Assembly (NCBI GenBank): GCA_029250925.1
Contig: JAQXEH010000052.1
Coordinates: 1-64,000, forward strand
Source: Hellea sp.
GTDB lineage: Bacteria > Pseudomonadota > Alphaproteobacteria > Caulobacterales > Maricaulaceae
DNA length: 64,000 bases
Direction of reading: 5' to 3'
Numbering within the stretch: the first letter of the stretch is position 1; each line of letters begins with the position of its first letter. The notes beneath the pieces were generated by a model. That model was not told where the DNA came from. It made no database searches and worked only from the letters and a program-made list of their open reading frames with translations. Shown piece by piece: positions 3,410 through 52,387 of this stretch. The translations under genes were made by a program, and so were the position numbers.

Positions 3410-3505
3410 ACAATGCCAAATTAATAAAAAATTAGTAATTTTATATAGATTTAACAACAGAAATTATTCTGAATTTTTGCGTTATAAAAAAGGGAAAGTT
3501 TAAAT

Positions 3506-3872
3506 GTCGTAGGGCCTATAAGCCGGGTTCTGTATCTGCAAATGCAGTGATGATCATTCCTCTAGTAGCATTATTACTAATACTCTCAAGCGACGCACCC
3601 GAACAGCGATGATAAAGCACATCACATGCCGTTCCTATTTGGTCTTGCTCCAGATGGGGTTTACCATGCCGCTAAAGTTACCTTCAACGCGGTGCGCTCT
3701 TACCGCACCCTTTCAGCTTTTCCTAGGCATGCCTAGGTAGTTTTCTTTCTGTGGCACTATCCCTAAACTGACACATATGTATCAATTTGCCGGGCGTTAC
3801 CCGGCATCCTGCTTTATTGGAGCCCGGACTTTCCTCGAATAATAATTACTCGCGATCACCCAACCCTACGAC
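3506..3872 (-). ncRNA. rnpB: RNase P RNA, bacterial type A
   Basis: Minus strand has GAGGAAAGTCCGGGCTCC, GGGTGCGGTAAGAGCGCACCGCG and ACAGAACCCGGCTTATAGGCCCTACGAC; termini gtcgtaggg/ccctacgac pair. Confidence 0.96.
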
Positions 3873-33498: not shown

Positions 33499-34026
33499 AT
33501 GAATATAGATAATATTTCCCCAGGCATAAATCCTCCGAAAGACATAAATGTTATTATTGAAGTACCACTTGGGGGTGAACCCATAAAGTATGAGCTGGAT
33601 AAGGTATCAGGCGCAATGTTTGTTGACCGGTTTCTTTATACTGCGATGAGGTATCCATGTAATTATGGCTTCATACCCCACACATTATCAGATGATGGCG
33701 ACCCTACTGACGTCTTGGTAGTTGGCAATAGAGCCTTAATGCCAGGGTCAGTAATCAGAGCGAGACCCATTGGAGTACTGATGATGGAGGATGAAGCTGG
33801 TATCGATGAAAAAATAATAGCTGTTCCTCACCAAAAATTAACAAAATATTATGACTTAATTCAAAATTATACAGATTTGCCTCAAGTAATGCAGGACAGA
33901 ATACCTCATTTTTTTGCGCATTACAAAGATTTAGAACCAGACAAATGGGTGAAAATTTTAGGCTGGGAATCAAGAGAAAAAGCGCATGAATTGATTGAGA
34001 GTGGTCTGAAGGCTTGTAAGAAATAA
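33499..34026 (+). CDS. ppa: Inorganic pyrophosphatase (soluble family I)
   Basis: [38 protein letters not shown]. Confidence 0.97.
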
Positions 34027-34049
34027 ACAACAACTCATAATATTTTTTG

Positions 34050-34055
34050 TATAAT
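34050..34055 (+). promoter_or_regulatory. Candidate -10 box for an hppA leader transcript
   Basis: Perfect TATAAT about 210 nt before the hppA ATG; no convincing -35 seen. Confidence 0.4.
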
Positions 34056-34123
34056 ATAGGCTAATGTCTCTCAATAAGACTCTTGATTATGTCTCTTAAT
34101 TGCTTAAAGAGAACTTATTAACC

Positions 34124-34221
34124 GCGAGGGGAAGCGTTTATCAGTTTAGGATATGCGGCCAACTTTACTTTAGCGAGGGGAAGCGATTGTCTGTTTTAGG
34201 CAAACGGCCAACTTCATTACA
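34124..34221 (+). ncRNA. Tandem pair of 49-nt structured elements in the hppA leader, candidate riboswitch-like RNA
   Basis: gcgaggggaagcg at 34124 and 34173, cggccaac at 34156 and 34205, both offset by 49; intervening 19 nt diverge but can fold into a hairpin in both copies. Confidence 0.7.
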
Positions 34222-34265
34222 CATAAACCGTTAAATACGGTCTTAACTCTAAGGAGAGAGTAAAA

Positions 34266-36362
34266 ATGACTCTTAATCTTATCATAGCGGCGGGTATACT
34301 TGCTGTAATTTATGGTATCATAACACGAGCAAGCTTGATGAAGGCTTCAACGGGTAATGAACGAATGAATGAAATTGCTGGAGCGATTCAAGAAGGAGCA
34401 AAAGCATATTTAAATAAACAGTATAAGACTATTGCCATAGTTGGCGTTGTTGTAACAATTTTACTTTACGTATTATTTCAAAACGCAATAGCTCCTGTTG
34501 GTTTTGTTTTAGGTGCTGTTTTATCCGGTATAGCTGGCTATGTTGGAATGCTTGTTTCTGTGCAGGCAAATGTTCGAACTACCGAAGCTTCACGAGAAAG
34601 TTTAGGCTCTGGACTTAATGTAGCCTTTAAAGCTGGCGCAATAACAGGAATGCTTGTTGCAGGATTAGCTCTGCTAGGATTAGCTGTATACTACATGGTC
34701 TTAACTGGTCCTATGGGTGCAGATGCACGAGGAGTAATTGATGGCTTGGTTTCTCTTTCACTTGGCGCCTCACTAATTTCAGTATTCGCAAGGCTTGGCG
34801 GCGGTATATTTACTAAAGGCGCCGATGTTGGTGGAGATCTAGTAGGTAAGGTAGAAGCAGGAATTCCTGAAGATGACCCAAGGAATCCAGCAACAATAGC
34901 AGATAATGTTGGCGATAATGTTGGCGATTGCGCCGGTATGGCTGCTGACTTATTTGAAACATATGTTGTGACAATTGCTGCGACTATGGTTCTCGGTTCA
35001 ATCTTGTTTTCAAATGTAGGCTCTTTGGCTTTATACCCAATGGCCATTGCAGCATCTTGCATAATTACATCTATAATAGGTACATACTTTGTTAAGTTAG
35101 GAAAAAATTCCACAAATGTTATGGGGGCTCTATATAAAGGTCTTATAGCCACTGGTCTTCTATCCGCAGCTGCGATATATATCGTCACACGACATACAAT
35201 CGGTCTTGGAGAAATCGAAGGTACTGGTTTCTCAGGAATGGATCTGTTCTTTTGCTCAGTCATTGGATTGTTAATTACCGGAGCTATAGTTGTAATTACA
35301 GAGTACTATACCGGTGTTAACTACCGTCCAGTTAAGTCTGTTGCAGCAGCATCTGAATCTGGGCATGGCACAAATGTTATCCAAGGTCTTGCAGTATCAA
35401 TGGAAGCAACTGCGGTGCCAGTTTTAATAATTGTTTTTGGTATAATTGGAACATACGCATTAGCTGATCTTTACGGCATCGCAATAGCTGTTACTGCTAT
35501 GCTAGGCGTTGCAGGAATGATAGTTGCTCTCGATGCTTTTGGGCCTGTAACTGATAATGCAGGTGGTATTGCTGAAATGGCAGAACTTCCCTCAGAAGTA
35601 AGGAATACTACTGATACTTTAGATGCGGTAGGTAATACAACAAAAGCTGTAACCAAAGGCTATGCGATCGCTTCTGCTGGTTTGGGTGCTTTAGTATTAT
35701 TCGCTGCATACTACAAAGATGTCGAGTATTTTGCATCCAAAGCTGTAGAAGGTTCTTTTTTCTATGGATTAGATACATTGCAATTCAGCTTAACTAATCC
35801 TTATGTTATCATAGGCTTATTTATTGGTGGACTGCTTCCATATTTATTTGGTGCATGGGCCATGCAATCAGTAGGAAGAGCTGCCAGTGCAATTGTTGAA
35901 GAAGTTAGGCGTCAATTCAAAGCTGATCCTGGTATTATGAAAGGTACTTCGAGACCCGATTATGCGAAAGCTGTCGATTTACTCACAGGTGCTGCGATCA
36001 AAGAAATGATTAAACCTTCATTATTGCCAATTCTTGCTCCAATCGTTTTATTCTTTGCTGTGAAAATGACAGCGGGTAATGCAGCTGCTGTAGAAGCTTT
36101 AGGTGCAATGCTTTTAGGTGTTATTGTAACAGGTCTGTTTGTTGCTCTCTCTATGACCGCTGGTGGCGGAGCTTGGGACAATGCCAAGAAATATATAGAA
36201 GACGGTAACCACGGCGGAAAAGGTTCCGATGCTCATAAAGCATCAGTGACAGGAGATACTGTGGGTGACCCCTATAAAGATACTGCAGGACCAGCTGTGA
36301 ATCCGATGATAAAAATAACAAATATCATTGCTCTTCTTTTATTAGCTGTATTAGCTCACTAG
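34266..36362 (+). CDS. hppA: Membrane-bound proton-translocating pyrophosphatase, K+-independent type
   Basis: [56 protein letters not shown] has Lys at the position diagnostic for the K+-independent class. Confidence 0.97.
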
Positions 36363-52133: not shown

Positions 52134-52317
52134 CGCTGTCTTTGAAACCTGAGAGATTCACTTAATGCTAATCTTAGCAAAAGCTTACTCCGTCGGTGGA
52201 AGATTACTCTAACCTTCACTTTCCAGCGTTTTAAACAACAAGCGGTCCGTTTTACCTGAGAGTTTCCGGTGGCGGTTGCTCCTTCGGTGGCGGGTTGATT
52301 CGCACTCTCCCGCTTGT
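52134..52317 (-). ncRNA. Tandem glycine riboswitch upstream of gcvT
   Basis: Minus strand: aptamer 1 ACAAGCGGGAGAGTG...CACCGAAGGAGCAA...GGAAACTCTCAGGTAAAACGGACCGCTTGT (52238-52317); aptamer 2 GCTGGAAAGTG...CCACCGACGGAGTAAGC...AATCTCTCAGGTTTCAAAGACAGC (52134-52227). Confidence 0.93.
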
Positions 52318-52387
52318 AATTGTTGAGTTCGTATTATACCTGAGGAATTATATGTCAATAAATATTTTTTAAGTGCAACGGTATTGT

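Follow-up and report, generated by a model that had tools for sequence, protein, structure and literature searches.

Several riboswitch classes couple two like aptamers to one expression platform, among them the glycine, guanidine-II and NAD+-I riboswitches (PMC9481103). The cooperativity of the dual glycine aptamer has been reviewed, guanidine-II (mini-ykkC) RNAs form two small, very similar tandem hairpins whose joint use leads to cooperativity, and NAD+-I riboswitches always carry two highly similar aptamers (PMC9481103). The Na+ riboswitch (DUF1646) is associated with genes for metal-cation transport and osmoprotection, and the main text describing it mentions neither hppA nor pyrophosphatase (PMC9337991).

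By sequence inspection, two RNA units of 43 nt with a spacing of 49 nt lie in the leader of the membrane pyrophosphatase gene hppA, within a 64-kb stretch of Hellea sp. DNA that we term the window (the whole of the DNA analysed). The element shares one trait with each of the systems above. As in the glycine riboswitch (RF00504), two homologous aptamer-like domains sit side by side with one expression platform; as in guanidine-II RNAs, they are small, near-alike hairpins in tandem; as in NAD+-I RNAs, similar domains are paired; and as with the DUF1646 RNA, a cis-acting RNA precedes an ion-transport gene. However, a unit here is a single hairpin interrupted by an internal loop, differing in sequence and fold from the glycine riboswitch, and its conserved bases lie in that internal loop rather than in the apical loops as in guanidine-II. 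The gene context differs from that of NAD+-I RNAs, to which cmscan found no match, and both consensus and fold differ from those of the Na+ riboswitch.

A scan with the 4227 models of Rfam 15, the check proposed in the original prediction, returned nothing at the window units (E ≤ 10) or at the units of 12 leaders (E ≤ 5), and the same scan recovered RNase P and a glycine riboswitch in the same window as positive controls. We take the DUF1646 motif to be among these models. Membership in RF00504 is ruled out, as that family matches only at 52233-52322 and not at the units. Guanidine-II membership is ruled out by the absence of the conserved four-base apical loops, by a middle of 11 to 50 nt and by the lack of a cmscan match. 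Membership in the Na+ class, which the original prediction had placed first, is rejected and a Na+ switch is unlikely, because Rfam gives no match and because the target gene encodes a proton pump rather than a component of sodium biology. Where searched for these terms, the main texts of freely accessible structured-RNA discovery papers, of a review of tandem riboswitches and of the Na+ riboswitch paper contain no relevant mention of hppA or pyrophosphatase, and a literature phrase search gave, among the papers listed, none on an hppA leader of this kind, the 2017 list of 224 candidate RNAs being covered via Rfam only. The element thus appears to be a new class of a known kind, the RNA itself being apparently undescribed.

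The hppA leader and its two units

The features of the locus, together with the two control RNAs, are as follows.

3503-3871, minus strand: bacterial RNase P class A RNA, RF00010 (Rfam scan)
33499-34026, plus strand: ppa, soluble inorganic diphosphatase (NF002317, 280.5 bits), directly upstream of hppA
34083-34088, plus strand: putative -35 element TTGATT (from the upstream sequences of 43 leaders)
34124-34166, plus strand: unit 1, outer parts (GCG; P1 5′ strand GAGG 34126-34129; P1 3′ strand CUUU 34163-34166)
Unit 1, 5′ loop side, plus strand: GG 34130-34131; AAG 34132-34134
Unit 1, P2, plus strand: CG 34135-34136 and UAUC 34139-34142, with GAUA 34150-34153 and CG 34156-34157
Unit 1, 3′ loop side, plus strand: G 34158; CC 34159-34160; AA 34161-34162
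34173-34215, plus strand: unit 2, outer parts (P1 5′ strand GAGG 34175-34178; P1 3′ strand CUUC 34212-34215)
Unit 2, 5′ loop side, plus strand: GG 34179-34180; AAG 34181-34183
Unit 2, P2, plus strand: CG 34184-34185 and UUGUC 34187-34191, with GGCAA 34199-34203 and CG 34205-34206
Unit 2, 3′ loop side, plus strand: G 34207; CC 34208-34209; AA 34210-34211
34212-34219, plus strand: proposed switch strand, CUUCAUUA in the window and CUUCAUAA in most relatives (P1 3′ strand of unit 2, extended)
34227-34241, plus strand: small hairpin ACCGU-UAAAU-ACGGU, matching the variable hairpin enclosed by the anti-SD helix of relatives
34251-34256, plus strand: Shine-Dalgarno (SD) sequence AAGGAG of hppA (from sequence, a short distance 5′ of the ATG at 34266)
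34266-36362, plus strand: hppA, membrane H+-translocating pyrophosphatase of the K+-insensitive type (ORF; NCBIfam; GNTTKA; PDB 8b37)
52233-52322, minus strand: glycine riboswitch aptamer, RF00504 (63.8 bits, Rfam scan)

The units do lie ahead of hppA as predicted, although the ppa-hppA intergenic region spans 239 nt (34027-34265) rather than about 200 nt. Between the end of ppa at 34026 and the hppA start at 34266, the ORF list holds no other forward frame of at least 60 aa. The product of hppA carries the GNTTKA signature of K+-insensitive H+ pumps, and its best PDB match is such a proton pump (8b37). The name of the NCBIfam ‘sodium-translocating’ model is generic, and the V-type H+ model also scores above its cut-off for this protein. 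Because hppA is of the K+-insensitive proton-pump type, neither Na+ nor K+ is suggested as the signal. In some other families (L239, L246 and L250), apparent ppa C-termini are likewise seen ahead of hppA.

The two copies (34124-34165 and 34173-34214) are 79% identical over 42 nt. The sequence agrees with the description first given of them: they are exactly 49 nt apart and share an identical 13-nt 5′ core, GCGAGGGGAAGCG, and an identical 8-nt 3′ core, CGGCCAAC. The 5′ core does not occur again within the 64-kb window, even when one mismatch is allowed. The middle between the cores has diverged yet can still fold, and the stems reported there (UAUC/GAUA in copy 1, UUGUC/GGCAA in copy 2) are borne out; between the copies, one A-U pair is replaced by G-C in a double change, and one U-A pair becomes U-G. 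The 3′ core is longer than first noted and runs on into CUU(U/C), the true ends of the units being 34166 and 34215. Because their single-sequence folding energies are ordinary (z = 0.41, -0.93 and 1.14), the two window copies alone would not prove a functional RNA; the evidence for this comes from conservation. Nearly all of the 43 leaders described below share a CTTGA-type hexamer some 38-44 nt before unit 1, which suggests that the hppA transcript probably starts just before unit 1.

Conserved fold and distribution

In each unit, the outer helix P1 (GAGG/CUUC) leads into the internal loop GGAAG/GCCAA, which may include a GG/CC step, and then into the covarying hairpin P2, which begins CG/CG and is variable in the pairs above. 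The cores are therefore not single-stranded-like as originally proposed; they form the outer helix and perhaps the GG/CC step. From 67 units we built an alignment (A1) and a covariance model (R1), which matches unit 1 at 34122-34169 (E 6.2e-13) and unit 2 at 34171-34218 (E 1.3e-12), the window copies being among its building sequences. RNAalifold applied to the units alone predicts P1 plus P2 unprompted.

In A1, 81 cells of P2 are changed on both sides compared with 24 in shuffles, in line with the earlier view that this is a functional RNA with a covarying stem and not a decayed duplication. Across the whole structure, 95.1% of cells are paired, compared with at most 49% in slid controls. A rough, home-made tree-aware covariation test places two P2 pairs as the best-covarying column pairs of the entire alignment, with E values for P2 pairs of 0.03-0.07 over all column pairs. 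Variation in P1 is mostly one-sided, mainly G-U exchanges, and is not significant in this test; P1 is thus a predicted helix, supported by pairing compatibility plus a few compensatory cases. Its forms include GAAG/CUUC, GGAG/CUUC, GGGG/CUCC and GAGG/UCUC besides GAGG/CUUC, and the GG/CC and CG/CG steps are invariant and so uninformative on pairing. At one P1 position G-U pairs predominate (49 of 67 units). Because these would be A-C mismatches on the other strand, the conserved molecule is the sense-strand RNA. The loop sequence CGGCCAA is identical in 85/85 units, and GGAAGCG in all. Apical loops, in contrast, show no such conservation, and the middle that separates the cores differs among units in sequence and in length (11 to 50 nt, with all remainders modulo 3).

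A simple pattern scan found both cores in 17 of 61 relatives, compared with 1 of 61 for the same pattern read backwards. Conservation upstream of hppA in related genomes, which the original prediction called for, was observed more widely with R1: at E < 1e-8 the model detects the element in 43 of the 137 genomes from the window's family, the carriers belonging to 7 genera. Neither of the outcomes that the original prediction listed as refuting it was seen. Public records matching the window's relatives belong to Hellea, Litorimonas, Algimonas and Robiginitomaculum. Wherever hppA is assembled, the element adjoins it on the same contig, and the next gene is hppA in every true case; weak matches at L253 and L153-L156 were rejected as copies since these are not hppA leaders. 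Among the matches listed by an exact-pattern scan of contigs, most of those outside the window's group lack stem and context and are attributed to chance. No convincing copy turned up outside the family in samples of the class (385 genomes), the phylum (399) and the order (200). Within family genomes, the R1 search found no second copy of the element elsewhere.

Exactly two units are present in 42 of 43 distinct leaders, 44-81 nt apart; the remaining leader has a decayed first unit. R1 likewise finds exactly two matches per genome, except in the genome with the decayed unit and in one assembly with two hppA loci, which is probably mixed. The single leader with a decayed first unit (L061, G454:C14) retains GCTGGGAAAGCG...GCGACCAGCC upstream of an intact unit, and recalls the ‘ghost’ aptamers of glycine riboswitches.

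The gene hppA itself is nearly universal in the family (130/137 genomes), and the motif is absent in any version from the hppA leaders of sister genera and families. Sampled hppA genes that carry the element group in a single clade (support 100/100); most simply, the element would then have a single origin with that hppA lineage. Several of the hppA leaders L199-L204, L212, L220, L222, L224, L225 and L248, which come from element-free genera in the same family, have in common a different, G-rich beginning, roughly ‘GCATAGTCC...CGGGGAGGGC(C/T)TG...TGATTC...’, that directly follows a -10-like box. They may represent another structured hppA leader, unrelated to the present one; aligned quickly, these leaders yielded no consensus fold, and Rfam gave only sub-threshold matches in those loci.

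A helix that competes with P1 of unit 2

The CUUC strand of unit 2 has a second potential partner: in 33 of 43 leaders it can form a helix with the hppA SD region or start codon whose energy is -5 kcal/mol or lower. This helix and P1 of unit 2 are mutually exclusive. The original prediction did not include this alternative pairing, which provides the best evidence for how the element works. In many leaders (genera g1, g2, g6 and g18), the P1 3′ strand of unit 2 plus AUAA is complementary to UUAUGGGGAG at the SD, whereas in most leaders of genus g9 the switch strand is complementary to UGUUAUGA across the start codon. Variants in genus g19 are changed on both sides (CUUCAUUAU/AUAAUGAGG, CUUCAUU/AAUGAGG and, in a start-codon version, UUCACUA/UAGUG), and a further compensated variant is CUUCAUG/CAUGGGG. 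The inner hairpin enclosed by the anti-SD helix covaries in relatives (alignment A2).

The competing helix has a mean energy of -6.70 kcal/mol, compared with -4.26 ± 0.22 kcal/mol for dinucleotide-shuffled targets. When unit 2 is given with its 3′ flank, RNAalifold predicts, again unprompted, P2 and the anti-SD helix instead of P1. Furthermore, P1 of unit 2 is invariant (GAGG/CUUC in 43/43 leaders), whereas P1 of unit 1 occurs in eight sequence forms yet keeps its pairing in 40 of 42 first units, as is predicted if the unit 2 strand has two partners. In most leaders the anti-helix state lies at or near the energy minimum and the dual-aptamer state about 3-12 kcal/mol higher, a computed gap that a ligand could bridge. 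The computed change in SD accessibility is modest in many leaders, and in some of the start-codon type it is in the wrong direction.

The window's AT-rich clade (L005, L010 and L011) has an anti-SD helix of only 4 bp (CUUC/GGAG), as do a few other leaders, and computed SD accessibility there is nearly equal between states (0.42 versus 0.44). Both aptamer-like units are intact in this clade, and the platform is, as far as the sequence tells, degenerated or changed in form. Because the helix is 4 bp and computed SD accessibility is independent of the aptamer, the mechanism has its least support in this genome, and it therefore rests on the relatives. The hppA start region of the window can form its own hairpin at 34251-34285 (AGAGAGU..AUG..ACUCUU) with coding bases opposite the SD, and similar hairpins are seen in other leaders; this may be a second layer of translation control.

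Interpretations of the element

The element is real, conserved and structured, and very probably regulatory. The sequences themselves show that it is conserved and strictly linked to hppA, that P2 covaries, that P1 is kept paired and that a competing helix can form; switching, its ON direction, ligand binding and cooperativity we infer. We propose that the hppA mRNA begins with a cis-acting RNA switch, in which two homologous aptamer-like units, each with helix P1, the strictly conserved loop GGAAG/GCCAA and hairpin P2, would act through a single expression platform fed only by the CUUC strand of unit 2. As long as the aptamers are unfolded, translation would be blocked by pairing of CUUCAUAA with UUAUGGGGAG in the SD region or, in one genus, of the switch strand with UGUUAUGA at the start codon. 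Stabilization of the aptamers would let P1 capture CUUC, freeing the ribosome-binding site and turning hppA ON. Most likely, the internal loops would bind a small ligand that provides this stabilization, and the two units would cooperate as in a cooperative dual-aptamer riboswitch.

On balance, we favour as probable an orphan riboswitch candidate in which two tandem aptamers serve a single translational ON platform and for which a small-molecule ligand is predicted. The leader contains a conserved, structured, aptamer-like domain with covarying helices, and in 33 of 43 cases a platform mutually exclusive with it, a platform that looks degenerate in the window's own leader. The narrow distribution, with one gene in one bacterial family, counts against this reading.

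The strongest competitor is a site for an RNA-binding protein. The GGAAG/GCCAA loops would be two sites, as for a dimer, through which the protein stabilizes P1 and controls hppA translation. Tandem, identical internal-loop sites with variable apical hairpins fit a protein equally well, as does a single gene target. However, no second copy exists in the genomes, for example at the gene of the regulator itself, and autogenous control is unlikely because the hppA product is a membrane enzyme. The units have neither the G-A/A-G pairs of kink-turns in their internal loop nor a conserved hairpin-loop sequence like that of CsrA sites. A kink-turn site in particular is ruled out, since the 3′ side of the loop (GCCAA) lacks the GA needed for tandem G-A/A-G pairs. 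We regard a protein-binding leader as unlikely, though worth weighing.

A structured leader that protects the mRNA 5′ end, fixes the translation level or acts as a thermosensor, all without a specific effector, would suit an element that appears to begin at the transcript 5′ end and whose two states are near in energy in several leaders. Neither protection nor melting needs an invariant loop (CGGCCAA in 85/85 units, GGAAGCG in all), however, and the retention of two complete copies in 7 genera implies that something specific is recognized, so that we consider this decidedly improbable. Paired transcription-factor operators or a decayed duplication without RNA function would account for a direct repeat near a promoter, but are highly improbable given inter-core lengths of 11 to 50 nt whose ends keep pairing by compensatory change, G-U wobbles with sense-strand polarity, units downstream of the putative promoter and a conserved partner of the switch strand at the SD or start.

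For the riboswitch candidate, the sole target, a PPi-driven pump, would point to PPi, energy state or a PPi-linked inhibitor as the signal. Pyrophosphate, the substrate of the pump, is the lead candidate ligand, and only a lead. It is rather doubtful that the specific version holds, in which tandem aptamers would bind PPi (probably as a Mg-PPi complex) cooperatively and permit translation only when PPi accumulates.

To our knowledge, bacterial sensing of pyrophosphate or energy state for the control of membrane pyrophosphatases has not been established. The element described here appears to be an orphan riboswitch candidate that combines an uncommon dual-aptamer design with a narrowly defined binding loop, a testable switch and just one, informative, target gene. 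That a single switch strand is set against either the SD or the start codon, depending on genus, is an example of a platform re-targeted while the aptamer stays fixed. The element makes directly testable how bacteria sense PPi or energy state to control their membrane pyrophosphatases.
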